Positions 32,575 through 51,143 of a DNA stretch of 51,143 bases are shown here, piece after piece. Source of the stretch: an uncultured Eubacteriales bacterium. Lineage in GTDB: Bacteria; Bacillota; Clostridia; Christensenellales; Aristaeellaceae. The position numbers and the translations under genes are program-made. Where the stretch lies: contig CACXBB010000018.1 in NCBI GenBank assembly GCA_902765735.1, positions 1 through 51,143 of the forward strand, given 5' to 3'. The notes below the pieces were generated by a model, which did no database searches, was not told the DNA's origin, and worked only from the letters and a program-made list of their open reading frames with translations. Within the stretch, counting starts at the first letter, position 1; every line of letters starts with the position of its first letter.

Positions 32575-32606
32575 ATAAAGCAGACCGGAATACAATCCCG
32601 GTCTGC
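32575..32606 (-). terminator. Terminator of the corrinoid protein gene
   Basis: On the minus strand a 9-bp stem GCAGACCGG/CCGGTCTGC with a nine-base loop and TTTATTATATAAT tail, 22 bases after the stop codon. Confidence 0.8.
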
Positions 32607-32627
32607 AATTCGTCATGGGGAAACCGA

Positions 32628-33257
32628 TCAGGAAACGAGCTCCTTGGCGGCCTTGGCGGCGGAGGCGGCGTCGGGGGTATAGCAATCCGCGCCGATCTTG
32701 TCCGCGAACTCCTGGGTGATGGGCGCGCCGCCCACCATGACCTTGACCTTGCTGCGCCACGGCGCGGCGTTGATGGCGGCCACGGTGTCCGCCAGGGCGG
32801 GCATGGTGGTGGTCAGCAGCGCGGAGCAGCCGATGATCTTGGTGTCGGGATTCTCCTCATAGGTGGAAATGAACTTCTCCAGCGGCACGTCAACGCCCAG
32901 GTCGATGACCTCGAAGCCGGCGGATTCGATCATCATGATGACCAGGTTCTTGCCGATGTCGTGCAGGTCGCCCGCCACGGTGCCCATGATCATCTTGCCC
33001 ATGCTGCCCACTTCGCCGCTGGCCAGGTGGGGCTTCAGGACCTCGACGCCCTTCTTCATGGCCTTGGCGGAGATCAGCATCTCAGGCACGAAAATCTCGT
33101 TGTTCTTGAACTTCTCGCCGACCACGTCCATGGCGGCAATCATGGTGTCCAGAATTTCGGTTGCGGCGACGCCCTCGTCCAGGGTCTCCTGCACGGCGGC
33201 GGGCACCAGCTTGGCCTTGCCACGGGTTACCAGATCGTTGACATTCTGAAGGCTCAT
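32628..33257 (-). CDS. Corrinoid (cobalamin-binding) protein of a methyltransferase system
   Basis: Methyl carrier between methyltransferases, 209 residues. A helical cap domain (residues 1-85) is followed by a B12-binding Rossmann domain with base-off motif D97-L-H99-D-I-G102 in TVAGDLHDIGKNL, then GCSALLTTTM near 143 and VMVGGAPIT near 173. It is the MtbC/MttC/MtvC type. The only corrinoid protein in the window; the matching methyltransferase precedes it by 41 bases. AAAGGAG lies about 10 bases before the ATG. It could carry methyl groups for both methyltransferases described here. Confidence 0.95.
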   Translation of the reverse strand: MSLQNVNDLVTRGKAKLVPAAVQETLDEGVAATEILDTMIAAMDVVGEKFKNNEIFVPEMLISAKAMKKGVEVLKPHLASGEVGSMGKMIMGTVAGDLHDIGKNLVIMMIESAGFEVIDLGVDVPLEKFISTYEENPDTKIIGCSALLTTTMPALADTVAAINAAPWRSKVKVMVGGAPITQEFADKIGADCYTPDAASAAKAAKELVS

Positions 33258-33298
33258 AGTAATATTACTCCTTTCATAATAACCACGTCAATGGTTTG

Positions 33299-34351
33299 TC
33301 AGAACATGATGGTGATGGGCAGGCGGTTGGCCTCGATGTCCTCCTGCTTGAAGCCGAACTTCTCGCAGTTGTACTTGTCGATGGCGTCCCAGATGCCCTT
33401 GTAGGTGCCGTCGTACAGGGAGCCGGGGCCGCCCTGTGAGATGCACGGTATGAAGTACTTGCCGTCGGCGACGGACCCGCAGGTGTTGATGGCGTTCAGC
33501 GCGGCCTTCTCGCAGTCGGCGTAGGTCCAGCCGTCGAAGTCCACCTGCTTGTTGTCGATCTCGCCCATGAAGGTCATCTTGCCGCCGTACTGCCTGATCA
33601 GCTCCGGCACGTTGTTGGAGTGCATGCAGCCCTGCCACACGTCGATGCCCATCTCGATCATGATCGGCACGATGTTGGCGCAGTAGCTGTCGGAGTGGTG
33701 GATGATGAACTCCACGCCGTGGCTCTTGTAGTAGCCGTAGATCTGCTTGTAGGCGTCCAGGAAGAAGTCCTCGAACACGCTGGGACGCAGGAAGGAGTTG
33801 CGCTCGGAACCAAAGTCGTCGTGATGGAAGATGGTGTCCGGGTGCAGGTTGGAGCAGATGCCCTCGGCAAGCTCCAGCTCCCAGTCGGTGAGGTACTTGA
33901 TGAGATCGTGCATCTCATCCGGATACTCCATGTAGTTCATCAGCGCCTCTTCCATGGAGCACAGGTGATGGCTCTGCTCGAACAGGCCGGGGGCCACGAA
34001 GGTGGCCTTGAAGGCTTTGGTGCCGTCCACGGCGGCGTACATGTCCTTGCACACGTTCCACAGCTCATCCGGGAACTTGAGGCTCGGGGCGTGCACGTAG
34101 TCGCGCCAGTGCTCGATGTCCTTCACCACGATCTTGTCCGGGGTGTGCACCGGGAAGGCGCCGGGGGTGTTGCCCGGGAAGGAGTTGGTGACGCCCCAGG
34201 CGTTCACCACGTTCATGTCGCCCTTTTTCAGAAGCGGCGACGCCAGCAGGAACGGATGGAACAGCAGGGCCACGGCCTCGTACTGGTTGACGAACCGGTC
34301 CGGCTTGCCGCCCAGTATGACCTGGCGCATGTTCTCTTTCGCCGTCAGCAT
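33299..34351 (-). CDS. UroD-family corrinoid methyltransferase (probable substrate:corrinoid enzyme)
   Basis: TIM-barrel protein of the uroporphyrinogen decarboxylase/MtaA-like family, 350 residues. It is paired with a corrinoid protein, so it is a methyltransferase, not UroD. It lacks the H-x-C...C zinc signature of MtaA/MtbA: the equivalent region reads H218-H-S-D-S-Y-C224, and the later strand reads F-M-G-E264-I-D266. This pattern is found in substrate-demethylating partners of corrinoid proteins (my recollection of the family). AAAGGAGG precedes the ATG at 34351. It is transcribed from a consensus promoter at 34451-34479 with an inverted repeat in the leader. The substrate is unknown; an O-methyl compound is the usual type. 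Confidence 0.87.
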   Translation of the reverse strand: MLTAKENMRQVILGGKPDRFVNQYEAVALLFHPFLLASPLLKKGDMNVVNAWGVTNSFPGNTPGAFPVHTPDKIVVKDIEHWRDYVHAPSLKFPDELWNVCKDMYAAVDGTKAFKATFVAPGLFEQSHHLCSMEEALMNYMEYPDEMHDLIKYLTDWELELAEGICSNLHPDTIFHHDDFGSERNSFLRPSVFEDFFLDAYKQIYGYYKSHGVEFIIHHSDSYCANIVPIMIEMGIDVWQGCMHSNNVPELIRQYGGKMTFMGEIDNKQVDFDGWTYADCEKAALNAINTCGSVADGKYFIPCISQGGPGSLYDGTYKGIWDAIDKYNCEKFGFKQEDIEANRLPITIMF

Positions 34352-34393
34352 GTCGATTCGACCTCCTTTATGCCAGAATGATGATCACTCCGC

Positions 34394-34438
34394 GTTGCAC
34401 AAAAATACGCATTCACGATCCCACTTATTTTGTGCAAC
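34394..34438. promoter_or_regulatory. Long inverted repeat, candidate operator
   Basis: GTTGCACAAAA (34394-34404) and its exact inverse TTTTGTGCAAC (34428-34438), arms 11 bp perfect with partial extension, spaced by 23 bases. It lies just downstream of the minus-strand promoter between the methyltransferase gene and the divergent PucR-type gene. Confidence 0.65.
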
Positions 34439-34450
34439 TTTCTCGTGAAA

Positions 34451-34479
34451 ATACTATCATTTCCGGCCAATTCTGTCAA
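34451..34479 (-). promoter_or_regulatory. Promoter of the methyltransferase-corrinoid operon
   Basis: Minus strand perfect TTGACA (34479-34474), 17-base spacer, TAGTAT (34456-34451). Confidence 0.75.
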
Positions 34480-34529
34480 TTCTTTTGACATTCGCCGTCG
34501 AATTTTCCACACTTTATGAAAAATGGCGC

Positions 34530-34558
34530 TTTACAATCCGCATTTTTGAGGATAAAAT
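34530..34558 (+). promoter_or_regulatory. Promoter of the PucR-type regulator gene
   Basis: TTTACA (34530-34535), 17-base spacer, TAAAAT (34553-34558), giving a short leader before AGGAGGG and the ATG at 34581. Confidence 0.7.
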
Positions 34559-34580
34559 AGTGTCATAGGAGGGTGCGACG

Positions 34581-36107
34581 ATGGCAAACGACAGGCTCAT
34601 GCACATGGAACCGGATATGCGGATGCTCGCGGAAGCCCTGACGGAGGCGGGCATCGCCTGCCGCGTCGAGGGGCCGCGGGACGGTGCGCGCTTCCGGGGC
34701 GTCAGACTGTTCACCGGCCAGGCGGACCCGGAGGCGCGGCTTCTGTACCTCGTCCAGCCGGAGGACGCCGGGCGCTTCCCGCCGGGCTGTGCCTGCGCAA
34801 GTCCCGCGCACGTGAGCGGCGGGGCGTGCCTGCGCTGTCCGGAGGCGGACGTTTTCGCGCTGATGGGCGCGCTGGAGGCGCTGTTTGACCGTTACCGCCG
34901 ATGGGAGCAGCGGCTGGACGAGCTGGTCTACCGGAACGTGGCCCTCGCCGCGCTGTGTGAGTCGGGGGCGGCGCTGCTGGGCAACCCCGTGTGCGTCCAC
35001 GACGACTGGTTCGTGATGATCGCCCGGTCCCGGGAGCTGGACAAAGTGCTGCCGCCGGACACCATCATGAGCTCGGAGCGGGAATTCCTGCCCCGGATCA
35101 TCGTGGAGGACTTCACCAATGACGCGGAATACCTGGAGACCTACGCCCATCGCTCGCCCCGGATCTGGGAGGGCACCCCGGGCCAGCCGCCCTGGCTGTA
35201 CGTGAACCTGTGGGCGGGCGACGTGTACCGCGGGCGGCTGTTGGTGGTGCAGTATCACCGGGCCTTTCAGAGCGCGGACTACATGGTGGCGGAGGTGCTG
35301 GCCCAGCGGATCATGGCGCTTTTGGACCGCAAGCAGCTGGGCGTGGACCGTCCCCACCGGGGCATGGACGACATCGTGTTCGACGTGCTCTCCGGCCGCC
35401 AGCCCGAGGCCGACGAGATCACCCGGCTGATGAACTCGCTGCACTGGAACCCCCGGGACCGGGTGGTGTGCGTCCGCCTCCGGGAGCAGCGGGACGAGGG
35501 CAGCGCCATACTGGACCACGCGCTGCACAGCGGGCTGTTCCAGGCTTTTCCCCGGGGCTACATCATGTTCAACGAGCGGGAACAGTGCGTGCTTCTGAAC
35601 CTGAGCCTCGACCCCATGAGCCTCGCCATGATCCGCCACACGCTGGCCCCGATCTGCCGCGACTACTGCCTCTACGCCGGCATGTCCTCCCCCGTGGACG
35701 GGCTGCAGGAGTGGCACGTGGCCTGGGTGGAGGCCCGCGACGCCTTGAACCGGGCCTACGAGCTACGGGGCGACAAGTGGATCATGCTGTTCTCGGACTG
35801 CATTCCCGCGCTGCTGCTCAACAGCCTCCAGCCGCCGCTGCGGCCCCGGCACGTCATCGCCCCGGAGCTCACCGCCCTGATGGAGTACGACGCCAAAAAC
35901 GACACCCAGTACTTCGACACCCTGCGGGTCTTCCTGCTGGAGGAGCGCAACATCCCCCGCGCCTCCGAGAAGCTCATCATCCACCGCACCACGCTTCTGT
36001 ACCGGCTTCGCAAGATCGAGAGCCTGGTCACCCTCAACCTCGACGACCCCTGGCGGCGGCTGTATCTGATGCTCTCTTTGAAGATACTGGACGGGACGCA
36101 GGCGTAG
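34581..36107 (+). CDS. PucR/CdaR-family transcriptional regulator
   Basis: A 508-residue regulator. The N-terminal two thirds are sensory: residues 79-88 contain a Cys cluster (SGGACLRCPEAD), and a GAF-like part follows at about 120-240. The C-terminal PucR helix-turn-helix is at about 445-480 (FLLEERNIPRASEKLIIHRTTLLYRLRKIESL). It is divergent from the UroD-type methyltransferase and corrinoid protein genes with a shared 230-base control region, so it most likely regulates them in response to the substrate. AGGAGGG precedes the ATG. Confidence 0.88.
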   Translation: MANDRLMHMEPDMRMLAEALTEAGIACRVEGPRDGARFRGVRLFTGQADPEARLLYLVQPEDAGRFPPGCACASPAHVSGGACLRCPEADVFALMGALEALFDRYRRWEQRLDELVYRNVALAALCESGAALLGNPVCVHDDWFVMIARSRELDKVLPPDTIMSSEREFLPRIIVEDFTNDAEYLETYAHRSPRIWEGTPGQPPWLYVNLWAGDVYRGRLLVVQYHRAFQSADYMVAEVLAQRIMALLDRKQLGVDRPHRGMDDIVFDVLSGRQPEADEITRLMNSLHWNPRDRVVCVRLREQRDEGSAILDHALHSGLFQAFPRGYIMFNEREQCVLLNLSLDPMSLAMIRHTLAPICRDYCLYAGMSSPVDGLQEWHVAWVEARDALNRAYELRGDKWIMLFSDCIPALLLNSLQPPLRPRHVIAPELTALMEYDAKNDTQYFDTLRVFLLEERNIPRASEKLIIHRTTLLYRLRKIESLVTLNLDDPWRRLYLMLSLKILDGTQA

Positions 36108-39831: not shown

Positions 39832-40737
39832 CTACTCCTCCCGTATCCTCCTCCCCCCATGCTTCTTCTGATACAGCACGCTCCCCGTCCGATACGCCAT
39901 GGGGGTAACGCCCTTTATCGCCTTGAAGCGCTGTATGAAGTGGGAGATATCGCAAAAGCCCAGCTCCTGGGCGATGCGCTCCACGGGCCAGGCGGTGGTC
40001 TCCAGCAGGTAGCTGGCGTGGCTGACCTTGCGGTTCATGACGTACTTGGAGTAGGTGGTGCCCATCATGCGGGAGAAGAAGCTGGAGAAGTAGGCGGGAT
40101 GGTAGCCGAAGGCCTGGGAGATCTCCGTGAGGCTGAGGCGGCGCTCGATGTTGTCGTCGATATACTTGAGGATGTCGTGGTTGACCGAGCGCCCGCCGGA
40201 CTCGATCTCCACCCGCTTGCACAGCGTCATGAGGATCTCGTAGAGCTTGAGGCTGATGCCCGGGCCCATGTGGGAGGGCTGGTAGAGTATGGAGGTGCAG
40301 ATGTTCATCACGTCCACGAAGGTGCTGCCCTCGTAGATCGGCCCGCCCACGTCCAGCACGTGGGTGGTCAGCTGGGCGGAATTGCCCCCGCCGTACTCCA
40401 CCCACACCAGCCCCATGGGGTCCTTGGGGTCGGAGGAGTACAGGTGCCCCTCGTTGGGCGCCAGCACGAACGCCTGGCCCGCATGCACGTTGTACATGTG
40501 CCCGCGGCAGGACACGCTGCCCTTCCCGTGGAAGCAGCAGTGGATCAGGCTGTAGCGGTAGGCGTCGTCCCGGGAGATCACGAAGTCCGTCGGGGTCTTG
40601 AGCACGATGCCCGCCCGGTTGACCTGCATGTACAGCGCGTTCAGGTCCACCGGCTTGGAGGATATGTAGTAATCGTCGTGGGGCACGGTGCCCACGATGT
40701 CGTGTTCGAGATCGTCCGCGTAGTAGTTGCGCTTCAT
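39832..40737 (-). CDS. AraC-family transcriptional regulator
   Basis: A 301-residue sugar-responsive regulator. N-terminal cupin-type sensor (about residues 30-130; HCCFHGKGSVSCRGHMYNVHAGQAFVLAPNEGHLY) and two C-terminal helix-turn-helix motifs at about 195-290 (LSLTEISQAFGYHPAYFSSFFSRMMG and WPVERIAQELGFCDISHFIQRFKAIKGVTP). GGAGGACACACCC precedes the ATG. It diverges from the ABC importer and so probably activates that operon on sensing its sugar. Confidence 0.92.
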   Translation of the reverse strand: MKRNYYADDLEHDIVGTVPHDDYYISSKPVDLNALYMQVNRAGIVLKTPTDFVISRDDAYRYSLIHCCFHGKGSVSCRGHMYNVHAGQAFVLAPNEGHLYSSDPKDPMGLVWVEYGGGNSAQLTTHVLDVGGPIYEGSTFVDVMNICTSILYQPSHMGPGISLKLYEILMTLCKRVEIESGGRSVNHDILKYIDDNIERRLSLTEISQAFGYHPAYFSSFFSRMMGTTYSKYVMNRKVSHASYLLETTAWPVERIAQELGFCDISHFIQRFKAIKGVTPMAYRTGSVLYQKKHGGRRIREE

Positions 40738-41132: not shown

Positions 41133-42125
41133 ATGAAGAAAATCGTCGCAGCAATCCTGGCTCTGATGTTGGTTCTGTCCGTGGCCGCGTTCGCCGAGGG
41201 CAATCCGACCATCGCCTACGTGCCGAAGGTCATCGGCCAGCCCTGGTGGGACCACGTGCAGCAGGGCGTTGAAGCCTGGGCCGCCGACAAGGGCATCGAT
41301 GTGATCTACAAGGGTGGCACCACCACCGACTCCGCCGAGCAGGTGCAGATCATGACCGACCTGGTCAACCAGGGCATCGACATCCTGTGCTTCTCCCCCA
41401 ACGATCCCGACGCCTGCGAGCAGATCTGCAAGCAGGCCCGCGACAAGGGCGTCATCGTCATCGCCACCGAGGCCTCCGGCATGGAGAACGTGGACTTTGA
41501 CATCGAGGCCTTCGACGAGGCCGGTCTGGGCGCGTTCCTGATGGACGAGCTGGCCGCGCAGATGGGCGAAGAGGGCGAGTACATCACCATGGTCGGCTCC
41601 ATGACCATGGAGTCCCAGAACAACTGGGCCGACGCCGCCATCGCCCGCCAGGAGGCCGCCTATCCGAACATGACCCTGGTGCCCGACAAGCGCGTCGAGG
41701 ACAACTCCGACGCTCAGGAGGCCTACAACCTCACCATGCAGCTCAAGGAGAAGTATCCGGACCTCAAGGGCATCCTGGGCACCGGCTCCTTCGACGCTCC
41801 CGGCGCCGCCCGCGCCATCGAGGAGATGGGCCTGACCGGTGAGATGTTCGCCATCTCCGTGGCCATGCCGGCCGAGGTCTCCGACTACCTGATCAACGGC
41901 ACCCTCAAGTCCGTCGCGCTGTGGGACGCCAGCGTCACCGCCAAGGTGCAGCTCAACGCCGCCATGAAGCTCTTCGCCGGCGAGTCCATCGAGGAGGGCT
42001 CCGACCTGGGCGAGGAGGGCTACGCCGCCATCCACATCGCCGACAACGGCAAGGGCAAGAACTACATCTACGGCGACGGCTATCTGGCCGTGACCGTGGA
42101 CAACTGGGAGTCCTTCGGCTTCTGA
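41133..42125 (+). CDS. Sugar ABC transporter substrate-binding protein (RhaS/RbsB-like)
   Basis: Extracytoplasmic binding protein of the periplasmic-binding-protein type 4 group, 330 residues. Signal peptide at residues 1-21 (MKKIVAAILALMLVLSVAAFA), cleavable, with no lipobox Cys. The mature part begins NPTIAYVPKVIGQPWWDHVQQGVEAWAADKGIDVIY, has VNQGIDILCFSPNDPDA near 87 and ILGTGSFDAPGAARAIEEMG near 212. This is like rhamnose (RhaS) or AI-2 type binding proteins. A rhamnose mutarotase gene downstream supports a deoxyhexose ligand. GAGGAGGA precedes the ATG. Confidence 0.9.
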   Translation: MKKIVAAILALMLVLSVAAFAEGNPTIAYVPKVIGQPWWDHVQQGVEAWAADKGIDVIYKGGTTTDSAEQVQIMTDLVNQGIDILCFSPNDPDACEQICKQARDKGVIVIATEASGMENVDFDIEAFDEAGLGAFLMDELAAQMGEEGEYITMVGSMTMESQNNWADAAIARQEAAYPNMTLVPDKRVEDNSDAQEAYNLTMQLKEKYPDLKGILGTGSFDAPGAARAIEEMGLTGEMFAISVAMPAEVSDYLINGTLKSVALWDASVTAKVQLNAAMKLFAGESIEEGSDLGEEGYAAIHIADNGKGKNYIYGDGYLAVTVDNWESFGF

Positions 42126-42145
42126 TCGATCAAACGACCTCTTGC

Positions 42146-42175
42146 GAGGCAGGGAAGGTGTGCCTTCCCTGCCTC
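42146..42175 (+). other. Strong intercistronic hairpin
   Basis: A perfect 13-bp stem (42146-42158 with 42163-42175) and four-base loop, with no T tract, between the binding protein and ATPase genes. Fits differential mRNA stability favouring the binding protein. Confidence 0.8.
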
Positions 42176-42268
42176 GATTCACGATTGACCGTCCGCTGAT
42201 GAGATCGGCATCGCGCGGGCGATGCGATGTCATGAACGGACCACGAACGACAAAGGAGCAAACAAAAC

Positions 42269-43753
42269 ATGTCTGAATACCTGCTTCAAATGACGGGGAT
42301 TGACAAGTCCTTCGGCGGCGTGCACGCGCTGGACCACGTCAATTTCGCCATCAAGCCCGGCAAGGTGATGTGCCTGGCCGGGGAAAACGGGTGCGGCAAG
42401 TCCACGCTGGTGAAGATCATCTCCGGCGTGTACACCCGCGATTCGGGCGAGGTGATGTTCGAGGGCAGGGCCATTGAGAAAATCACCCCGGCGGACGCCA
42501 CGCGCATGGGCATACAGGTCATCTACCAGGACCTCTCCATCTTCCCGAACCTGACGGTGATGGAGAACCTGGCCATCAACTCGGAGATCACCGCCAACCG
42601 CAAGATCGTCAACCGGAAGCGCTGGGAGCAGACCGCGCGGGAGGCGCTTTCCAAGATCGGCTATGAGATCGACCTGCACAAGAAGATGGGCGAGCTGTCC
42701 GTGGCGGACAAGCAGCTGGTGGCCATCTGCCGCGCGCTGCTGTTCAACGCGAAGCTCATCATCATGGACGAGCCCACCACCGCGCTGACAAAAAAAGAGG
42801 TGGACGCGCTGTTCAAGACCGTGCGGCAGCTTCGGGACTCCGGCATCGCCATCATGTTCATCAGCCACAAGACGGAGGAGATCTTCGAAATCTCCGACGA
42901 CGTGTGCATCATGCGCAACGGCAAAAACGTGTTCCTCGGGGAGACGGCCACGCTGACGAAGAAGGACTTCACCTACTACATGACCGGCCGCGAGATCGAG
43001 GACGACTACTTCGTGCCCACCAACATCTCAAAGGAGCCGGTGCTGAAGGTCGAGCATCTGACCTGGAGGGACAAGTTCCACGACGTGTCGTTCGAGCTTC
43101 GAAAGGGCGAGATCCTCGGCATCACGGGCCTGCTGGGCTCGGGCCGCACGGAGCTGGCGCTTTCACTGTTCGGGCTGGGCAAGGTGCACTCCGGCACCAT
43201 CACATTAAACGGCCGGCCGGTCAAAATCTCATCGCCCATCGAGGCCCAGAGGCTGCGCATCGGCTACGTGCCGGAGGACCGGCTGACCGAGGGCCTGTGC
43301 CTGCGGCAGCCCATCGCGGACAACATCATGCTCTCCTCATTAAAGCAACTCACCCGGGCGCTGGGCATGATCCGGCATCAGGAGCTGTTTGAGAAGTCCA
43401 ACGAGTGGGTGAAGACCTTCTCCATCGCCACCGACGACGCCCACAAGCACGCCTCCACGCTCTCCGGCGGCAACCAGCAGAAGATCGTGCTGTCCAAGTG
43501 GCTCAACAACGACCTGGACGTGCTGATCCTGAACGGCCCCACCGTGGGCGTGGACATCGGCGCCAAGCAGGACATCCACGCGCTGGTGCACGACCTGGCC
43601 AACAAGGGGCTGGCGGTCATCATCATCTCCGACGACCTGGCGGAGGTGGTGGTCAACTGCAACCGCGTGATCGTCATGAAGGACGGCGGCATCGTGGGCG
43701 AGATGACCGGCGACAGGATCACCGAGGAGAACATCCTCGACATCATACGATGA
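42269..43753 (+). CDS. Sugar ABC transporter ATPase with two nucleotide-binding domains (RhaT/RbsA-like)
   Basis: A 494-residue tandem ATPase of the CUT2 class. The first domain is intact: Walker A GENGCGKST at 38-46, signature LSVADKQL near 146 and Walker B IIMDEPTTALT near 166. The second has LLGSGRTELALSLFG in place of Walker A, signature LSGGNQQKIVLSKWL near 396, and a Walker B segment reading LILN422-G423-PTVGVD where the usual form is LILDEPTRGVD. The catalytic acidic pair is therefore missing, and this site is likely non-hydrolytic. AAAGGAG precedes the ATG. It is co-transcribed with two permease genes. Confidence 0.93.
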   Translation: MSEYLLQMTGIDKSFGGVHALDHVNFAIKPGKVMCLAGENGCGKSTLVKIISGVYTRDSGEVMFEGRAIEKITPADATRMGIQVIYQDLSIFPNLTVMENLAINSEITANRKIVNRKRWEQTAREALSKIGYEIDLHKKMGELSVADKQLVAICRALLFNAKLIIMDEPTTALTKKEVDALFKTVRQLRDSGIAIMFISHKTEEIFEISDDVCIMRNGKNVFLGETATLTKKDFTYYMTGREIEDDYFVPTNISKEPVLKVEHLTWRDKFHDVSFELRKGEILGITGLLGSGRTELALSLFGLGKVHSGTITLNGRPVKISSPIEAQRLRIGYVPEDRLTEGLCLRQPIADNIMLSSLKQLTRALGMIRHQELFEKSNEWVKTFSIATDDAHKHASTLSGGNQQKIVLSKWLNNDLDVLILNGPTVGVDIGAKQDIHALVHDLANKGLAVIIISDDLAEVVVNCNRVIVMKDGGIVGEMTGDRITEENILDIIR

Positions 43754-43765
43754 GGAGGCGCGCAC

Positions 43766-44779
43766 ATGAATAAGGCTGCATTGAAGCGCATGACGCGCAG
43801 AACCGAGTTTTACATGTTTATCGTGCTGATCCTGCTGTGCGTGCTGGTTCAGATCAAGTCCGGCGGCAAGCTGATCGCCTTCCCGGGCATATTCACCCGG
43901 CTGAACGTCACGGTGCTTCGGACCATGGTGGTGAACGGCATGTTCGCCATGTGCTCGCTGGTGGTCATGATCTCCGGCGGCTTCGACCTGTCCTTCCCCG
44001 CCATCGCGGCGCTGTCGTACTCGCTAACCTGCACCATCTGCTTAAACAACGGCTGGTGCCAGAACAGCCCCGTCGTGGGCTTTCTGCTGGCGGCGGCCAT
44101 CGGCTGGGTGCTGGGCATGCTGAACGGCTGGATCATCTCAAACTTCAAGCTCAACACCATGATCGTCACCCTGGGCACGCAGACGCTGTTCACCGGCATC
44201 TCCATGGGCCTGCTGGCGCTGAAGGAGATCACCTCCACCCTGCCCAACGGCTTCAAGACCTTCGGCAAGCTGTATATCCTGGAGGGCGTGGACGGCAAGA
44301 TCCGCTTCACGCTGTCGGCGATGGTGATCTTCCTGATACTGCTGTGCGCCATCGTGTCGTTCATACTCAACAAGACCATGTTCGGCCGGGCGCTTTACGC
44401 CATCGGCGGCAACGAGGTCTCCGCCGAGCGCGCCGGCTACAACGTCAAAAAGGTCAAGTTCCTGCTGTACTCCTCCGTGGGCGCGCTTTCGGGCTTCGTG
44501 GGCATGATCCGCGTGTGCATGGAGAGCCAGTCCATCCCCAAGGCCATGGTGGGCCGCGAGATGACCATCATCCCCGCGGTCATACTGGGCGGCGCGTCGA
44601 TCTTCGGCGGCGAGGGCACCGTGTTCGGCACGGTGGTGGCGGTGGCCATCATATCGCTGGTGTCCAACTCCATGCTGCTGCTGGGCATCGACACCTACTG
44701 GCAGCAGTTCTTCAACGGCCTGGTGATACTGGTCGGCGTCACCGTGTCCGCCCTGCAGGCCAAGCGCCAGAAGCAGTAA
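43766..44779 (+). CDS. Sugar ABC transporter permease 1 (RbsC/RhaP-like)
   Basis: A CUT2-type inner membrane permease, 337 residues and about ten helices. Conserved blocks are LVVMISGGFDLSFPAIAALS near residue 70, LNGWIISNFKLNTMIVTLGTQTLFTGI near 120, ALYAIGGNEVSAERAGYNVKKVKF near 210 and VILGGASIFGGEGTVFGTVVAV near 272. Twelve bases after the ATPase gene, with GAGGAGG upstream. Forms a heterodimer with the next gene product. Confidence 0.93.
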   Translation: MNKAALKRMTRRTEFYMFIVLILLCVLVQIKSGGKLIAFPGIFTRLNVTVLRTMVVNGMFAMCSLVVMISGGFDLSFPAIAALSYSLTCTICLNNGWCQNSPVVGFLLAAAIGWVLGMLNGWIISNFKLNTMIVTLGTQTLFTGISMGLLALKEITSTLPNGFKTFGKLYILEGVDGKIRFTLSAMVIFLILLCAIVSFILNKTMFGRALYAIGGNEVSAERAGYNVKKVKFLLYSSVGALSGFVGMIRVCMESQSIPKAMVGREMTIIPAVILGGASIFGGEGTVFGTVVAVAIISLVSNSMLLLGIDTYWQQFFNGLVILVGVTVSALQAKRQKQ

Positions 44780-44792
44780 AGGGAGGTGCGCA

Positions 44793-45800
44793 ATGATGAA
44801 ATCCAAGACCTTTGAAAAGCACAGCTACACCTTCATGCTGCTGGGCCTGATGGCCGTGGTGCTGCTGTTCTTCACCGCCTTAAAGGGCGGCATGATGTGG
44901 AAGGGCGACGTGTGGCTGGGCATCGCCATGCAGTTTCCGGAGTACGGCGTGGTCACGCTGGGGCTGATGTTCTGCTTCATCTGCGGCAAGATGGACATGT
45001 CCTTCATGGCGCTGGGCAACTTCGCCACCATCATGGCGGTCATGTACATGGGCGCCCACGCGGATTCCCCGGCGGGCGGCGTGATACTGGTGGGCATCGC
45101 GATCGCCCTGGGCATCGCGGTCGTCGGCGGCCTGATCAACGGCCTGCTGGTGGCATACCTCGACATCCCGCCGGTGATGGCCACCATCTCCATGCAGCTG
45201 GTGTGGACGGGCCTCTCGGTGGCGCTGACCAACGGCAACACCGTCAAGGGCCTGCCGAGCCTGTACACCGACATCGGCCACACCTACCTGCTGGGCTTTC
45301 TGCCGGTGCCGCTTCTGATCTTCCTGGTGATATTCGCCGTCGCCTGGTGGCTTTTGCAGCACACCGTGTACGGCGAGAAGCTCTACATGGTGGGCACCAA
45401 CATCAAGGCCGCCGAGTTCTCCGCCATCAACACCAGGCGCATGGTGATCGGCACCTATATCCTCTGCGACGTGATCTGCTGCATCGGCTGCCTGATCATG
45501 ATCTCCACCATGGCCAGCGCCAAGGCGGACTACGGCACCTCCTACGTGATGCGCTGCATACTGATCCTCGTGCTGGCCGGCGTGCTGCCGGACGGCGGCA
45601 TGGGCAGGATCGACAATGTGCTCATCGCCATCGTCACCATACAGATCATCGCCACCGGCGTCAACATGTTCCCCAACCTCAATACATACTACGCCAGCCT
45701 CATATGGGGCGCCCTGCTGCTGGTGGTGCTGGTGATGTCCACCCGTATGAGCAGCGGAGGATTCTTGAGGCTGCGGGCTAAAAAGGCTGCGAAGGCGTGA
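44793..45800 (+). CDS. Sugar ABC transporter permease 2 (RbsC/RhaQ-like)
   Basis: Second permease subunit, 335 residues, about ten helices. Family blocks are LMFCFICGKMDMSFMALGNFATIMAV near residue 50, LINGLLVAYLDIPPVMATISMQLVWTGLSVALTNG near 110, KLYMVGTNIKAAEFSAINTRRMVI near 195 and VLPDGGMGRIDNVLIAIVTIQIIATGVNMF near 265. It starts at the first of two adjacent ATG codons, behind GGGAGG. Having two different permeases matches the RhaP/RhaQ arrangement rather than single-permease ribose systems. Confidence 0.92.
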   Translation: MMKSKTFEKHSYTFMLLGLMAVVLLFFTALKGGMMWKGDVWLGIAMQFPEYGVVTLGLMFCFICGKMDMSFMALGNFATIMAVMYMGAHADSPAGGVILVGIAIALGIAVVGGLINGLLVAYLDIPPVMATISMQLVWTGLSVALTNGNTVKGLPSLYTDIGHTYLLGFLPVPLLIFLVIFAVAWWLLQHTVYGEKLYMVGTNIKAAEFSAINTRRMVIGTYILCDVICCIGCLIMISTMASAKADYGTSYVMRCILILVLAGVLPDGGMGRIDNVLIAIVTIQIIATGVNMFPNLNTYYASLIWGALLLVVLVMSTRMSSGGFLRLRAKKAAKA

Positions 45801-45810
45801 GAATAATTAG

Positions 45811-45977
45811 AGTGGAGAGTGGAGAGTGAAGAGTGAAGATCAGGATGAAATCCTTACGGATTTCTTTTGATTGAAGGCTGCGAAGCATCGTACAATCATT
45901 GATTATTATATATAAATTAAAACAAATCCGAAGGATTTGTACCACAACTCCACTCTCCACTCTTCACTCTCCACTCT
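45811..45977. repeat. AT-rich insert flanked by inverted GAGAGTG heptamer arrays
   Basis: GAGTGGAGAGTGGAGAGTG at the left and its inverse CACTCTCCACTCTTCACTCT at the right surround about 115 bases of low-GC DNA. The core holds two hairpins, GAAATCCTTACGGATTTC and CAAATCCGAAGGATTTG. It lies between the permease gene and the methyltransferase gene. Confidence 0.8.
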
Positions 45978-45991
45978 CGGGCGCAGCCCGA

Positions 45992-45997
45992 TATAAT
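45992..45997 (+). promoter_or_regulatory. Candidate -10 of the methyl-transfer gene run
   Basis: TATAAT 40 bases upstream of the ATG at 46037, with no good -35 at normal spacing. Either weak, activator-dependent, or not used if the importer transcript reads through. Confidence 0.3.
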
Positions 45998-46036
45998 AGA
46001 CGAACCACATAACAATACGCATGGGAGGAACCTGAC

Positions 46037-47083
46037 ATGAACAGCCTGGAGAGATTCTACAAGACCATCGCCTACGAGCCTGTGGATCGTCCCGCCTGCT
46101 GGCTGGGCGACCCGACCCCGGAGGAGGCCAAAAAGCTTTGCAAATACTACGGCGTCGCCAACACCAGCGAGCTCAAGAAGGTGGTCGGGGACGACTTCTA
46201 CGCGGTGGAGATCCCCTATCACTCCCCCACCTGCAACGCCATATTCGCGGCGTTTGACTGGTACATGAACGGCACCAACGTGGACACCGAGCACCGCACG
46301 CTGACGGCGGACGGCTGCTTTGCCCACTGTGAGGACCTTGACGACGTGAAGGCCGTGAACTTCCCCTGGCCGGACCCGGAGAAGTACATCGACCCCGAGC
46401 TGTGCCGCAGGCTGGTGGGCGAGGCTCCCGAGGGCAAGACGGTCATGGGCATGCTGTGGGCGTGCCACTTCCAGGACACCTGCGCGGCCTTCGGCATGCA
46501 GACGGCACTGATGAACATGGTGGCGGAGCCGGAGATGGTGCACTACGTGGACGACCACATCGTAGCGTTCTACGAAAAGGCCCTGCGCATCTTCCTCGAT
46601 GCCACGAAGGGCAAGGTGCACGCGCTGCTCATCGGCGACGATGTGGGCAGCCAGCGCGGCCTGATGATCTCCCCGGCGCTGGTGAAGGAATTCGTGATCC
46701 CCGGCGCGAAGAAGCTCATCGACATCGCCCACAGCTACGGCGTGAAGATCGTGTACCACTCCTGCGGCTCCATCGTGGACGCCATACCGCTTTTGATCGA
46801 GGCGGGCGTGGACGCCGTGCATCCCATACAGGCCAAGGCCGCGGGCATGAACCCCGAGAACCTCAAGGAGAAGTTCTACGGCAAGGTGGCCTTCTGCGGC
46901 GGCGTGGACACCCAGGACCTGCTGCCCTTCGGCACGCCGGAGCAGGTGGCGCAGCGCGTCAGGGAGCTCCGGGCGATCTTCCCCACCGGATTGATCGTCT
47001 CCCCCAGCCACGAGGCGCTCCAGGCGGACGTTCCTCCGGAAAATGTTAAATCTTTATTTGACGAAGCGGGAAAAATATATTAA
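46037..47083 (+). CDS. UroD-family corrinoid methyltransferase, MtaA/MtbA-like zinc type
   Basis: TIM-barrel methyltransferase-like protein, 348 residues. The MtaA/MtbA zinc signature is present: H241-S-C243 in VYHSCGSIVD and C287 in VAFCGGVDTQDLLP. The latter is followed by PFGTPEQVAQRVRELRAIFP and the family C-terminus. True UroD enzymes lack this Cys pattern. Twenty-four bases separate it from a rhamnose mutarotase gene and 23 more separate that from a methyltetrahydrofolate methyltransferase, so the three are surely one transcript. GGGAGG precedes the ATG. Likely role: moving a methyl group from a substrate to a corrinoid protein, or between corrinoid and a thiol or pterin. Confidence 0.85.
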   Translation: MNSLERFYKTIAYEPVDRPACWLGDPTPEEAKKLCKYYGVANTSELKKVVGDDFYAVEIPYHSPTCNAIFAAFDWYMNGTNVDTEHRTLTADGCFAHCEDLDDVKAVNFPWPDPEKYIDPELCRRLVGEAPEGKTVMGMLWACHFQDTCAAFGMQTALMNMVAEPEMVHYVDDHIVAFYEKALRIFLDATKGKVHALLIGDDVGSQRGLMISPALVKEFVIPGAKKLIDIAHSYGVKIVYHSCGSIVDAIPLLIEAGVDAVHPIQAKAAGMNPENLKEKFYGKVAFCGGVDTQDLLPFGTPEQVAQRVRELRAIFPTGLIVSPSHEALQADVPPENVKSLFDEAGKIY

Positions 47084-47107
47084 AATAGACGTAGGAGGGA
47101 AAAGCAC

Positions 47108-47434
47108 ATGCTTCTGCGCTTTGGACAGATGATCAAGGTCAGGCCCGACTGCCTGGCCGCCTACAAGAAGTGGCACGCCAACCCCATGCCCGGGGTCAAC
47201 GAGATGATCAAGGCCTGCCACCTGAAGAACTATTCCATCTACAGCAGAGGGGACTACCTGTTCGCCTACTTCGAGTATGACGGGGACGACTTCGACGCCG
47301 ACATGGCGAAGATGGCCGCCGACCCCAATACCCAGGCCTGGTGGGACGTGGTGAAGCCCCTGATGCAGCCGCTGGAAGATCGCAAGGAAGGCGAATTCTG
47401 GTCCGACATGGAGGAAGTGTATCACCTCGATTAA
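47108..47434 (+). CDS. rhaM: L-rhamnose mutarotase
   Basis: A 108-residue mutarotase of the RhaM/RhaU (DUF718) family, full length. It interconverts alpha and beta anomers of L-rhamnose. Conserved features are LRFGQMIKVRPDCLAAYKKWH with H23, the CHLKNYSIYSRGDYLFAYFEY strand region and TQAWWDVVKPLMQPL with the double Trp. AGGAGGG precedes the ATG. Its placement between two methyltransferase genes, downstream of a RhaSTPQ-type importer, is the main clue that the methyl donor could be a sugar. Confidence 0.92.
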   Translation: MLLRFGQMIKVRPDCLAAYKKWHANPMPGVNEMIKACHLKNYSIYSRGDYLFAYFEYDGDDFDADMAKMAADPNTQAWWDVVKPLMQPLEDRKEGEFWSDMEEVYHLD

Positions 47435-47456
47435 TAACACAGGGGGATGAAATCAC

Positions 47457-48266
47457 ATGATTATCATCGGCGAGAAGATCAACGGCTCCATTCCGATTGT
47501 GGCGGATGCCATCGCCCGCAGGGACAGCGAGTTCATCAAGGCCCGCGCCAGGATGCAGGAGGAGGCCGGCGCCACCTTCATCGACTGCTGCGCGTCCGTG
47601 CCCGAGGCCCAGGAGGTCGAGACCCTCAAGTGGATGATCGACTGCATTCAGGAGGTCTCCGACCTGCCCATCTCCGTGGACAGCCCCAGCGCCAAGGTGC
47701 TCTCGGAGGCCTACAAGTTCTGCAAGAGGCCCGGCCTGTTCAACTCCGTGTCCGGCGAGGGCGACAAGATCGACATCATCTTCCCGATCATGGCGGAGAA
47801 CAAGAAGTGGGAGTGCATCGCCCTGTGCTCCGACGACACGGGCATCCCGAAGAACGCCGCCGACCGCCTGAAGGTGTTCGACAAGATCATGGCCAAGGCC
47901 AAGGAGTACGGCATCACGCCCAACCGGCTGCACATCGATCCGCTGGTGGAGATGCTGTGTACCTCCGAGAATGGCATCGAGACGAACACCGAGGTCATCT
48001 CGACCATCCGCGAAAAGTATCCCAGCATCCACATCACCGCCGCCGTGTCCAACATCTCCTTCAACCTGCCGGTGCGCAAGATGGTGAACCTGGGCTTCAC
48101 GGTGCTGGCGATGAACGCCGGCCTGGACAGCGCCATTCTCGATCCCACCAACCGCGACATGATGGGCGTCATCTTCGCCACCGAGGCGCTGCTGGGCATG
48201 GACGACTACTGCATGGAGTACATCTCCGCCTACCGCGAAGGCCTGTTCGGACCGAAGAAGGACTGA
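47457..48266 (+). CDS. Methyltetrahydrofolate:corrinoid methyltransferase (MeTr/AcsE-MtvA type)
   Basis: Pterin-binding TIM-barrel methyltransferase, 269 residues, the usual MeTr length. Opening MIIIGEKINGSIPIV, then LPISVDSPSAKVL near residue 67, LHIDPLVEML near 160, SNISFNLPVRKMVN near 200 and LDSAILDPTNRDMMG near 224 fit the dihydropteroate-synthase-like family that moves methyl groups between corrinoid protein and tetrahydrofolate. In a catabolic run it would be methyltransferase II, feeding one-carbon metabolism. AGGGGGA precedes the ATG. No CO dehydrogenase/acetyl-CoA synthase genes are nearby, which argues for a demethylation role. Confidence 0.93.
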   Translation: MIIIGEKINGSIPIVADAIARRDSEFIKARARMQEEAGATFIDCCASVPEAQEVETLKWMIDCIQEVSDLPISVDSPSAKVLSEAYKFCKRPGLFNSVSGEGDKIDIIFPIMAENKKWECIALCSDDTGIPKNAADRLKVFDKIMAKAKEYGITPNRLHIDPLVEMLCTSENGIETNTEVISTIREKYPSIHITAAVSNISFNLPVRKMVNLGFTVLAMNAGLDSAILDPTNRDMMGVIFATEALLGMDDYCMEYISAYREGLFGPKKD

Positions 48267-48362
48267 CTTAACGCAACCGAAGCACAATGAATCGAGCCTT
48301 TCCGACCGGTGAAGCCGCGTCGGAAAGGCTGTATTGGTATGCGATCAAACAGGGAGGCCGCC

Positions 48363-50057
48363 ATGGAATATCATGTGAACTACATCGCCGAGGGCCGATG
48401 CGTGACCGTCCCGGCGGGAACGACGCTGCTGGAGGCCCAGCGGCTTGCGCAGCTGCCCGCCGACGCGCCTTGCGGCGGCAAGGGGACCTGCAAGAAGTGC
48501 GCCGTGGAGTACCGCGGGGCGGGAGAGGCCGCGTGGCGGCGGGAGCTGGCCTGCCGCGTGACGGTGGACCGCGACATGGAGGTGCGCCTGCTGCGCGGCG
48601 ACGAGAAGCTGCAGGTGCTGACCGACAGCGCCCAAACCGACGGACAGGCGTGGGACCCCATGGTGCGCGCGCGCCCGATCCACGTCGCGCCCTGCGCCCG
48701 GGGCGACAGCACCGCCGACTGGTCCCGGCTGTGCGCGGCGCTGGGCGACGGCCCCTGGCAGGTCAATATGAAGCTGTGCAGGAACCTGGGCGCGCTGCTC
48801 AAGCGCGCGGGGGGCGACGTGTGGGCCGTGACCGCCGGGGACCGTGTGCTGGACGTCCGGGCGGAGGAGCCCCGGGTGTGCGTCGCGGCCTTCGACCTGG
48901 GCACCACCTCCATCGCGGCGTACCTGATCGAGGTCAACGGCGAGAAGCGGCAGATCGTCGCCGGCATGCGCAATCCCCAGGCCCAGTACGGCGGCGACGT
49001 GATCTCCCGGGCGGACTACGCCCTGGAGCACGGCCCGGAGGCGCTGGCGGACTGCGCCAGGGAGGCCATCGACGGCCTGCTCGGGCGCATGTGCCATCAG
49101 GCGAACATCGCCCGCGAGAGCGTGTACGCCGTGCTGCTGGCCGGCAACACCGCCATGCACCACCTGTTCCTGGGCATCTCGCCGGATTCGCTGGTGCACG
49201 CGCCCTACAACCCGGTCGTCAGCGAGCCGCTGGACCTCTCCGCGTCCCACTTCGACCTGCACGGCCACCCCGCCGCCCGGCTGTACATGCTGCCGGTGAT
49301 CGGGGGCTTCGTGGGCGCGGACACCGTGGGCTGCCTGATCGCCGGGGACTGGCTTGAACGGGAGAAGCTGACATTGATGATCGACATCGGCACCAACGGA
49401 GAGCTGGTACTGGGCGACCGCCGTCGCCGCATCGCCTGCTCCACCGCCGCGGGGCCCGCCTTCGAGGGCGCGAAGATCACCTGCGGCATGCGCGGCGCGG
49501 AGGGGGCCGTCGATCACGTGTGGCTGGAAGACGGGGCTCTGCGCTGGCACGTGCTGGGCGAAGGCGCCGCCGTCGGCATCTGCGGCTCCGGGCTGGTGGA
49601 CCTGGTGGCGATGCTGCTTCAGTCCGGGGCCATGGACGAAAGCGGCCGGCTCGAGGACGGGGACCGCTACGACCTCGGGGACACCGGCGTCTACATCACC
49701 CAGAAGGACATCCGCGAGGTCCAGCTCGCCAAGGCCGCCATGGCCGCCGGCATCGTGCTGATGGCGGAGAAGCTGGGCGTCGGGATCGAGGAGATCGAGG
49801 AGGTCAACATCGCCGGGGCCTTCGGCAACTACATCGACCCGGACAACGCCTGCGCCATCGGGCTGATCCCCCAGGCGCTCCGGCAGCGCATCGTGCCCGT
49901 GGGCAACGCCGCCGGCGAGGGCGCGCGCCGCGCGCTGACAGATCGCGCCGCGTGGCGCTCCGGCGAGACCCTCGCCCGCACCACCGAGTTCCTCGAGCTC
50001 GCCACCATGCCCCAGTTCCAGGATGAATTCGTCGATCAGCTCGGCTTCCCGGAATGA
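48363..50057 (+). CDS. Reductive activator of corrinoid proteins (RACo-like, DUF4445)
   Basis: ATP-dependent activator that restores Co(I) after accidental oxidation, 564 residues. The N-terminal [2Fe-2S] domain has C37-x5-C43-x2-C46-x17-C64. A linker and middle domain lead to the ASKHA ATPase domain, with VAAFDLGTTSIAAYLI near 179, LTLMIDIGTNGELVLG near 338, AAGPAFEGAKITCGMRGAEGA near 365 and VNIAGAFGNYIDPDNA near 480. The ATG at 48363 follows AGGGAGG; an upstream ATG at 48309 has none. A 96-base gap after the MeTr gene has a GCCTTTCCGACCGG/CCGCGTCGGAAAGGC-like hairpin but no T run. Its presence confirms a working corrinoid cycle. Confidence 0.93.
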   Translation: MEYHVNYIAEGRCVTVPAGTTLLEAQRLAQLPADAPCGGKGTCKKCAVEYRGAGEAAWRRELACRVTVDRDMEVRLLRGDEKLQVLTDSAQTDGQAWDPMVRARPIHVAPCARGDSTADWSRLCAALGDGPWQVNMKLCRNLGALLKRAGGDVWAVTAGDRVLDVRAEEPRVCVAAFDLGTTSIAAYLIEVNGEKRQIVAGMRNPQAQYGGDVISRADYALEHGPEALADCAREAIDGLLGRMCHQANIARESVYAVLLAGNTAMHHLFLGISPDSLVHAPYNPVVSEPLDLSASHFDLHGHPAARLYMLPVIGGFVGADTVGCLIAGDWLEREKLTLMIDIGTNGELVLGDRRRRIACSTAAGPAFEGAKITCGMRGAEGAVDHVWLEDGALRWHVLGEGAAVGICGSGLVDLVAMLLQSGAMDESGRLEDGDRYDLGDTGVYITQKDIREVQLAKAAMAAGIVLMAEKLGVGIEEIEEVNIAGAFGNYIDPDNACAIGLIPQALRQRIVPVGNAAGEGARRALTDRAAWRSGETLARTTEFLELATMPQFQDEFVDQLGFPE

Positions 50058-50071: not shown

Positions 50072-50100
50072 TTGACAAATCGCGGTGACAGGTATATAAT
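50072..50100 (+). promoter_or_regulatory. Promoter of the metal-resistance genes
   Basis: Perfect TTGACA (50072-50077), 17-base spacer, perfect TATAAT (50095-50100). Confidence 0.93.
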
Positions 50101-50101
50101 T

Positions 50102-50125
50102 ACATATGAACAGATGATCATATGT
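50102..50125. promoter_or_regulatory. ArsR/CadC-type operator
   Basis: ACATATGA and TCATATGT arms (8 bp perfect; ACATATGANCA on both sides when extended) centred about 13 bases after the -10. This is the expected position and style of a CadC/SmtB-family repressor site. Confidence 0.8.
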
Positions 50126-50139
50126 TTGGAGGTGGTGGC

Positions 50140-50496
50140 GTGCAGGACCGCATCGAGTGCTGCGAGGAGCACTGCGTGCATCCGGAGATCCTCGAGCACG
50201 TGAAGCTGGAGATGCCAAACGAGGAGGCGCTCTACGACCTGGCGGAGCTGTTCAAGGTGTTCGGTGACACCACGCGCATCCGCATACTGTACGTGCTGTT
50301 CGAATCGGAGATGTGCGTGTGCGACATCGCGGAGCTTCTGAACATGTCCCAATCGGCGATCTCCCATCAGTTGCGGGTGCTCAAGCAGGCCAAGCTGGTG
50401 GGCAACCGGCGGGAGGGCAAGACCATCTACTACTTCCTGGCGGACGACCACGTGCGCACGATCATCGGCCAGGGCATGGAACACATCGAGGAATGA
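50140..50496 (+). CDS. ArsR-family metal-responsive repressor, CadC type
   Basis: A 118-residue winged-helix repressor. N-terminal metal-site residues CCEEHCVHPE (residues 6-15) and C-x-C in SEMCVCDIAELLNMSQSAISHQLRVLKQAKLV match CadC-type sensors of Cd, Pb or Zn; the latter is also the recognition helix region. The wing is NRREGKTIYYFLAD. A GTG start at 50140, seven bases after GGAGG, is preferred; an ATG at 50122 would start before that site. It heads the operon with an HMA protein and a P1B ATPase and should repress them until metal binds. Confidence 0.9.
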   Translation: MQDRIECCEEHCVHPEILEHVKLEMPNEEALYDLAELFKVFGDTTRIRILYVLFESEMCVCDIAELLNMSQSAISHQLRVLKQAKLVGNRREGKTIYYFLADDHVRTIIGQGMEHIEE

Positions 50497-50513
50497 GCGA
50501 GGAGGAAGCAGCA

Positions 50514-50732
50514 ATGAAGAAGACCTACAAGATCGACGTGGACTGCGCAAACTGCGCGAACCTGATGGAAGAGGCCGCCAAGAAGACCCCGGGCGTGGCC
50601 AACTGCGCGGTGAGCTTCATGACCCTCAAGATGAAGGTGGAATTCGACGAGGGCGCGGACGTGGACAAGGTGATGCAGGCGGTGCGGGACAACTGCAAGA
50701 AGGTGGAGCCGGACTGCGAAGTGTTCCTTTGA
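50514..50732 (+). CDS. Heavy-metal-associated (HMA) domain protein
   Basis: A 72-residue metal-binding domain with DCANCAN (CxxC at residues 11-14) and the ferredoxin-like babbab fold, plus two late Cys residues (NCKK and DCEVFL). It probably hands metal to the adjacent P1B ATPase, whose own N-terminus lacks an HMA domain. AGGAGGA precedes the ATG at 50514. Eighteen bases after the repressor gene. Confidence 0.9.
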   Translation: MKKTYKIDVDCANCANLMEEAAKKTPGVANCAVSFMTLKMKVEFDEGADVDKVMQAVRDNCKKVEPDCEVFL

Positions 50733-50734
50733 TA

Positions 50735-50766
50735 ATTGGGAATTGGGAATGGGGAATTGGGAATTT
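50735..50766. repeat. Heptamer-like tandem repeat AATTGGG
   Basis: Four imperfect units (AATTGGG, AATTGGG, AATGGGG, AATTGGG) in the gap between the HMA and ATPase genes. Third heptamer type in the window; no inverted partner seen. Confidence 0.7.
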
Positions 50767-50813
50767 GAATTGCGTCCTGATTCCCTCTTCTTTTTAGGAA
50801 AGGTCGTGCCGGT

Positions 50814-51143
50814 ATGAATCAGAAGCAGAAAAAACTGTTGATTCGCATCATCGTCGCCGCGGTTTTCTTCGTGCCGCTGTACCTGATCTCCGAGGGTATT
50901 GTGAAGGTTCCCCTGCCCCAGTGGGCAATAATCCTGCTGTTCCTTGTTCCCTACCTGACGGTGGGTTACGACATCCTCAGAAAGGCGTTTCTGGGCATCA
51001 AGAACGGCAAGGTGTTCGACGAGTGCTTCCTGATGACCGTGGCGACCGTGGGCGCGATCGCGCTGGGCGAGTACGGCGAGGGCGTGGCGGTCATGCTGCT
51101 CTACCAGGTGGGCGAGCTGTTCCAGAGCTACGCCGTCGGAAAG
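50814..51143 (+). CDS. Heavy-metal P1B-type ATPase (CadA/ZntA-like), N-terminal part
   Basis: The first 110 residues of a metal-exporting P-type ATPase, cut by the window end. Hydrophobic segments are at residues 8-27 and 37-57. The block KNGKVFDECFLMTVATVGAIALGEYGEGVAVMLLYQVGELFQSYAV is the diagnostic Cd/Zn ATPase start, and the absence of an N-terminal HMA domain is explained by the separate HMA gene. AGGAAAGG precedes the ATG at 50814. Expected to export Zn, Cd or Pb from the cell. Confidence 0.93.
   Translation, partial: MNQKQKKLLIRIIVAAVFFVPLYLISEGIVKVPLPQWAIILLFLVPYLTVGYDILRKAFLGIKNGKVFDECFLMTVATVGAIALGEYGEGVAVMLLYQVGELFQSYAVGK

Follow-up and report, generated by a model that had tools for sequence, protein, structure and literature searches.

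A predicted corrinoid-dependent O-demethylation locus for a methylated L-fucose-type sugar in an uncultured Eubacteriales bacterium

The closest described counterparts of the locus considered here are the O-demethylation systems built around OdmB, VdmB and MtvB of acetogens and MtoB of archaea, in which a UroD-superfamily methyltransferase I (MT-I) works with a corrinoid protein, a methyltransferase II (MT-II) and an activase to pass a methyl group to tetrahydrofolate (THF) (passages of PMC13222342 and PMC10418091). The locus lies in a contig of an uncultured Eubacteriales bacterium (GenBank CACXBB010000018.1), and the window is that entire contig (C18), 51,143 bases long, from a genome of 2.92 Mb in 73 contigs that is 96.7% complete. 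An MT-I family member, a corrinoid protein, an MT-II and an activase are all predicted from their domains on this one contig. We consider it probable that they form a four-component corrinoid system for the O-demethylation of an imported, O-methylated L-fucose-type sugar. An aliphatic sugar ether offers a poorer leaving group than a phenol, and it is here that the locus departs from its counterparts: the substrates of OdmB, VdmB, MtvB and MtoB, in the passages of PMC13222342, are methoxylated aromatics, whereas here the importer for sugars, the mutarotase of L-fucose type and, at related loci, genes of fucose or pectin enzymes point to a sugar.

Other described systems share some of these parts or the reaction they would carry out. 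The CdmBCA chloromethane system of Acetobacterium dehalogenans has a UroD-superfamily MT-I, a corrinoid protein and an MT-II, but acts on a haloalkane, and the passages of PMC13222342 that deal with it mention no sugar genes. Type 1 mlp clusters, present in anaerobes including those of the human gut, also join UroD-superfamily proteins to a corrinoid protein and an activase; they are proposed to serve methyl-sulfur and methyl-selenium compounds, and the main text of PMC10418091 does not use the words sugar, fucose or rhamnose. Such a cluster holds three Mlp paralogues; among the 15 window proteins scanned for domains (PF01208 included) there are two UroD-type genes, in separate units. A marine cytochrome P450 acting on 6-O-methyl-D-galactose also demethylates a monosaccharide, but does so oxidatively and yields formaldehyde (PMC10033563), unlike the transfer of the methyl group to a cofactor without oxygen proposed here. 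In Bacteroides, 2-O-methyl-L-fucose is freed by GH139 (passages of PMC10154630). A preliminary description of this DNA, made from its letters, had known of no described corrinoid system for methylated sugars, and open-licence PubMed Central literature agrees in that the matches listed include no corrinoid system for sugars and no account of oxygen-free methyl removal from 2-O-methyl-L-fucose. We propose that the machine is of a known type and that the sugar ether is a new class of substrate for it.

The gene run, all on the plus strand, begins with a CUT2 sugar-binding protein (SBP; 41133-42125; PF13407, best solved relative 5bra), followed by an importer ATPase with two ABC domains (42269-43753; PF00005 in two stretches), permease 1 (43766-44779) and permease 2 (44793-45800), both PF02653. 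After a gap of 236 bases (45801-46036) come UroD1 (46037-47083; PF01208), the proposed methyl-sugar:corrinoid protein methyltransferase (MT-I), and a RhaM-family sugar mutarotase of L-fucose type (47108-47434; PF05336). The run closes with MeTr, the methyl-corrinoid:THF methyltransferase (MT-II; 47457-48266; 337 bits on NF005719 against a cut-off of 259), and RACo, the corrinoid reductive activase (48309-50057; PF14574, PF17651, PF17650), whose true start may be further in. The spaces between UroD1 and the mutarotase and between the mutarotase and MeTr are 24 and 22 bases, as first described. The preliminary description had also placed every gene on one strand, which is true from the SBP to RACo and fails for the AraC-family regulator (39832-40737; PF00165/PF12833/PF02311), which lies outside the span then given (41133-50057) and on the minus strand, divergent from the importer; an AraC gene is on the minus strand upstream in relatives L024-L030 and L032 as well. 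Its view of importer and methyl-transfer genes as a single run is upheld by the gene order of relatives and qualified by the 236-base gap, which holds short repeats in inverted orientation as well as a terminator-like hairpin (45847-45864). Eleven relatives share this order, and in ten of them permease 2 and UroD1 are only 19-180 bases apart (251 in the near-identical L024), so the importer and the methyl-transfer genes likely form one operon. Terminator-like sites are no commoner in the region than in shuffled sequence.

In the pathway that we propose, the CUT2 importer would bring the methyl sugar into the cell, and the mutarotase would supply whichever anomer is required, either of the methyl sugar or of the sugar once freed. 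UroD1 would then transfer the O-methyl group to the Co(I) form of the corrinoid protein, a role as MT-I acting on a methyl sugar that we infer from its fold, its conserved residues and its neighbours. Judging from the functions of their families, MeTr would move the methyl group from the corrinoid protein to THF, and RACo would re-reduce corrinoid protein that has fallen to Co(II). Methyl-THF would probably enter the Wood-Ljungdahl pathway; acetyl-CoA synthesis could take up the methyl group, given a PF03598 acetyl-CoA synthase-type gene in the genome, the only gene of that pathway searched. The freed fucose would pass to FucI. This isomerase forms the ketose at C2 and hence requires a free 2-OH, so that demethylation of 2-O-methyl-L-fucose would be an obligatory first step.

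The arrangement is conserved well beyond this genome. An alignment of UroD1, scanned against 84,980 species genomes, gave 71 loci, of which 69 are close (L024-L092; at least 55% identity in the best segment); two remote ones (L093-L094) were left out of the counts, for which all frames of at least 70 amino acids were scored by phmmer at E 1e-10. Nearly all hosts are named as Clostridia or its families, among them Blautia schinkii, Blautia massiliensis, Robinsoniella peoriensis, Eisenbergiella tayi and Murimonas intestini, and two are Treponema metagenome-assembled genomes (MAGs). The closest public locus among those found, at 99%, belongs to a goat-ileum Clostridia MAG. Within 10 kb of UroD1 lie the mutarotase (46 of the 69 loci), the corrinoid protein (16), MeTr (14), RACo (10), FucI (8), FucU (6), SASA esterase (6), DUF2284 (5) and GH29 (4). 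At 44 loci the mutarotase and UroD1 share a strand and lie no more than 200 bases apart, a CUT2-type ATPase (above 150 bits, within 8 kb) is marked at 41, and at least one of corrinoid protein, MeTr and RACo is found within 10 kb at 25. Adjacency of the UroD, RhaM, MeTr and RACo families, whose possible uniqueness had been raised as a check in the preliminary description, is thus not peculiar to this genome but conserved in public ones.

A tree of 68 UroD1 rows divides into two halves, each with full support, and the corrinoid protein is linked to UroD1 in both (13 and 3 loci), in varying order and strand. It is near UroD1 at 16 of 69 loci, where two copies per 3 Mb would by chance place it at roughly 1.4% of loci (binomial 2e-15, or 2e-7 for seven copies per 3 Mb, relatedness ignored in both). 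UroD1, mutarotase, MeTr and corrinoid protein occur together in L084, L051, L041 and L064, and L059 reads RACo-UroD1-MeTr-corrinoid protein, with no mutarotase. The most informative locus is L028, which repeats the window's order from the minus-strand AraC gene through SBP, ATPase, permeases and UroD1 to RhaM, and then holds a corrinoid protein and a PF02574 homocysteine S-methyltransferase (L028:8527-9375) where the window holds MeTr and RACo. The order in L070 is PF02574 (L070:9066-9923), UroD1, corrinoid protein. We read PF02574 in these two loci, by its family, as an alternative methyl acceptor on the same machine, and the methyl group may there pass to homocysteine instead. As a separate observation, UroD1 is identical in L041 and L064, from records named Blautia schinkii MSK.6.26 and Blautia massiliensis GD8, and differs from that of B. 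schinkii DSM 10518 (L084), which points to transfer or to a mislabelled record.

A corrinoid protein had not been named in the preliminary description, and it matters here because the scheme proposed there needs one. The window does encode one, with B12-binding_2 and B12-binding domains (32628-33257, minus strand), 13 kb from UroD1 on the opposite strand of the same contig; it is the sole PF02607 match in the genome, as RACo is the sole PF14574 match. Among 50 genomes with no corrinoid protein near UroD1, 47 have a PF02607 match elsewhere and 46 a stand-alone one. RACo is present in 42 of 43 UroD1 genomes examined and in 1 of 14 control genomes. Within the window's order (297 genomes), 172 genomes have a PF02607 match, mostly MetH-length frames among the matches listed, and at least 42 have a stand-alone corrinoid protein (about 80 if every unlisted weak match counts). 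Eight genomes have a UroD1 match of E 1e-40 or better, with identities of at least 55% in three and of 31-43% in five, and all eight fall among those at least 42 (hypergeometric 9e-8 to 4e-5, relatedness ignored). Taken with the conserved adjacency and the corrinoid proteins of the window and of relatives' operons, the counts of 46 of 50 and 42 of 43 lend comparative support to the original idea that the methyl group of an imported O-methylated deoxysugar is carried by a corrinoid to THF; the assignment of that sugar to rhamnose we revise to fucose.

The nature of the sugar is indicated by the mutarotase and by the neighbours of UroD1. The mutarotase scores 104.7 bits on PF05336, the RhaM family in the wide sense (Pfam cut-off 23.4), but only 47 bits on TIGR02625, the YiiL/RhaM model, whose cut-off is 99.6. 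Its best solved relative is the L-fucose mutarotase 7byu (residues 4-108, E 1e-25), whereas E. coli YiiL/RhaM (1x8d) matches at E 4e-4, so that the name rhamnose mutarotase given at first is replaced by an L-fucose type; to our knowledge, 7byu has no corrinoid link. Nor does the importer earn the label rhamnose-type, its SBP scoring 137 bits against the TIGR02637 (RhaS) cut-off of 342. The ATPase reaches the cut-off of none of the best 25 of 190 curated models, and the permeases that of none of the curated models listed. With neither TIGR02625 nor TIGR02637 passed and an L-fucose mutarotase as the match, we set rhamnose aside as the sugar. The methyl-rhamnose first offered as an example gives way to a fucose type also on account of the neighbours: FucI, FucU or GH29 occurs at 12 of the 69 loci, of which seven belong to the 40 of clade I and five to the 28 of clade II. 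A GH29 alpha-L-fucosidase stands directly before UroD1 in four clade II loci (L058, L062, L065, L066), and L054 reads FGGY kinase-SDR-URO-D-FucI-FucU-corrinoid protein-UroD1-RhaM-importer; an FGGY kinase is found at two UroD1 loci. These neighbours, together with the apiosidase-family and rhamnogalacturonan-lyase-family genes described below, make 2-O-methyl-L-fucose of the pectin rhamnogalacturonan II (RG-II) the leading candidate substrate.

Searched against 391 genomes of the class, the mutarotase has 13 matches in 12 genomes at E 1e-15. A UroD-family gene is the neighbour of each of the seven matches, counting that of the window itself, that reach 50% identity, and of none of the six below 50%, some of which lie on contigs that end early (Fisher 6e-4). 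What this mutarotase subfamily accompanies is thus the UroD family at large and not just UroD1. Two loci at 47% identity came up when viral contigs were scanned with the mutarotase.

The four NCBIfam models listed for UroD1 are of MtaA/MtbA/CmuA type (E 2e-10 to 3e-5), all under cut-off: UroD1 scores at most 40 bits where the curated cut-offs of the MtaA, MtbA and CmuA models run from 235 to 600. Its predicted structure (predicted local distance difference test score 93.5) has MtaA (4ay8) as its top match in a fold search. In an alignment of 50 rows, H241, C243 and H325 are invariant and C287 is Cys in 48. UroD2, the second UroD-superfamily protein of the window, carries His-x-Asp where UroD1 carries His-x-Cys. 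Four weak phmmer matches of UroD1 to solved structures (E 0.04-0.1) were taken for chance; UroD2 had no phmmer match to solved structures at E 0.1.

Several observations weigh against corrinoid demethylation of a fucose-type sugar, and some of them favour other readings. Corrinoid protein, MeTr and RACo are all absent within 10 kb at 44 of 69 UroD1 loci, some on contigs that end early; at least one is present at 21 of 40 loci in clade I, only 4 of 28 in clade II, and not at the single fragment. Four of the 50 genomes have no stand-alone corrinoid protein (none in G307, G336 and G346, only a 795-residue frame in G340), and this includes G346 (L092), whose UroD1 is 93% like the window's and which yields no corrinoid protein match. 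In the window, the corrinoid protein sits in the unit of UroD2, and relatives' UroD2 units have no UroD1 in the stretches fetched. Since the only PF02607 match of the genome is in that unit, UroD1 of the window either shares the corrinoid protein of the UroD2 unit or depends on one absent from the assembly; we think that it is probably common to both. The sugar side has its own exceptions: 57 of 69 loci have no FucI, FucU or GH29 within 10 kb, and FucI lies outside the window, as a single genome copy alone on contig C25. The same machine might thus act on another substrate, be it 2-O-methyl-xylose, methyl-rhamnose, an O-methyl inositol or the aglycone of a methyl fucoside, with the mutarotase handling the product only. 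RG-II holds 2-O-methyl-xylose too (passages of PMC12168206), the importer passes none of the curated sugar models listed, and apiosidase-family, GH127 or RGL11 genes take the place of fucose enzymes at several loci of clade II. The PF13204 apiosidase family is found at 3 of 69 loci, adjoining UroD1 in L060 and L083 and 5 kb off in L068, and in L072 two rhamnogalacturonan-lyase-family genes (RGL11 and PcRGLX) precede UroD1-corrinoid protein-RACo. Methyl-rhamnose is kept among these substrates because a tally of neighbour families covers the best 25 of 64 and rhamnose isomerase was not specifically searched. Against all of them stand the L-fucose type of the mutarotase and the fucose enzymes found in both clades, and we regard another substrate as unlikely, although worth keeping in mind. 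An open frame of 1021 residues in L083 (4581-7646), considered as a rhamnosidase, was dropped as it has no Pfam match.

Two further readings would take the sugar or the corrinoid away from UroD1. If the pathway ran in reverse, methyl-THF would feed MeTr and the corrinoid protein, a UroD-type enzyme would methylate a thiol (methionine or coenzyme-M-like chemistry), and the importer would be a mere neighbour. MtaA and, further off, MetE are both among the fold neighbours of UroD1. HemE decarboxylases score near MtaA, and a profile built from 50 UroD1 sequences matches no solved structure at E 0.01; these two results weigh against the proposed MT-I role. S-methyltransferases of the superfamily have a His-Cys-Cys zinc site, while O-methyltransferases have lost one or both Cys (passages of PMC10418091). 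The third metal ligand of UroD1 could be either H325 (50 of 50) or C287 (48 of 50), and through C287 a His-Cys-Cys site as in S-methyltransferases could exist; the invariant residue, however, is the His and not a Cys. In L028 and L070, a PF02574 gene close to UroD1 and the corrinoid protein also suggests thiol chemistry, as does the lack of a MetH-length PF02607 protein in the window genome, but PF02574, where present, is already the homocysteine enzyme and leaves UroD1 on the methyl donor side. The closeness of the mutarotase and the frequency of the CUT2 ATPase at UroD1 loci speak in the same direction, and we judge thiol methylation improbable. More improbable still, in our view, is that UroD1 is an uncharacterised sugar enzyme of UroD fold with no corrinoid role, the methyl-transfer neighbours serving substrates of UroD2 type. 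Such an enzyme would fit the CUT2 operons of L015, L018, L022 and L120, which have UroD-family genes but, in the stretches seen, no corrinoid protein, and it would fit G340, where a stand-alone corrinoid protein and RACo are both missing despite the presence of UroD1; corrinoid components near UroD1 at 25 loci across both clades, and the presence of corrinoid protein and RACo in most UroD1 genomes examined, argue against it.

Corrinoid-dependent demethylation of an O-methylated L-fucose-type sugar is thus the reading that we prefer. Whether UroD1 goes further and founds a class of corrinoid-dependent sugar O-demethylases seems to us evenly balanced. In that proposal, gut anaerobes would cleave the ether of 2-O-methyl-L-fucose, sister clades would act on other methylated plant sugars such as 2-O-methyl-xylose, the methyl group would end in acetate or methionine, and the sugar would be fermented. 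If this is true, the enzyme that removes the methyl group from released 2-O-methyl-L-fucose would be named, and corrinoid chemistry could cleave an unactivated sugar ether, with a harder leaving group than the known methoxyaromatics. In culturable gut Blautia, fibre digestion would be tied to acetogenesis or to the supply of methionine. A function would also be suggested for part of the UroD superfamily, and further UroD-superfamily genes in CUT2 sugar operons would be expected to encode more sugar demethylases.

The second methyltransferase unit of the window spans 31823-36107. UroD2 (33299-34351, minus strand; PF01208) is in tandem with the corrinoid protein, a DUF2284 predicted metal-binding protein (31823-32431, minus strand; PF10050) completes that side, and a PucR-type regulator (34581-36107, plus strand; PF13556, PF17853) is divergent from UroD2. 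The order PucR-UroD2-corrinoid protein recurs in four of six stretches of relatives (L131, L132, L135, L136); in L133 UroD2 was not found, and in L134 the order differs. Elsewhere in the genome there is one further MeTr homologue (28%, at C6:53069), with the PF03598 gene on the same contig, 56 kb away, and two MTHFR are encoded. In L015, L017, L018, L022, L085 and L121, several UroD-superfamily paralogues neighbour one another, in most cases together with CUT2 importer genes; these loci also hold FucI or, recognised by eye, kinase-like or D-lyxose-isomerase-like genes, show no corrinoid protein in the stretches seen, and possibly encode further sugar demethylases.

The hairpin in the gap that separates permease 2 from UroD1 lies between inverted copies of a short CTCCACTCT-type repeat, whose four matches in the window all fall within 45810-45976 and which has the look of an inserted repeat element. 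Rfam at gathering scores finds in the window a tRNA at 14350-14423 alone, with no riboswitch or other RNA. Beyond RACo, positions 50072-51143 hold an ArsR gene and then, judged by eye, a small heavy-metal-associated-like protein and the beginning of a P-type-ATPase-like gene. The ArsR gene is probably a unit separate from the RACo run, because a perfect sigma-70-like promoter site, TTGACA-17-TATAAT, precedes it at 50072-50100.

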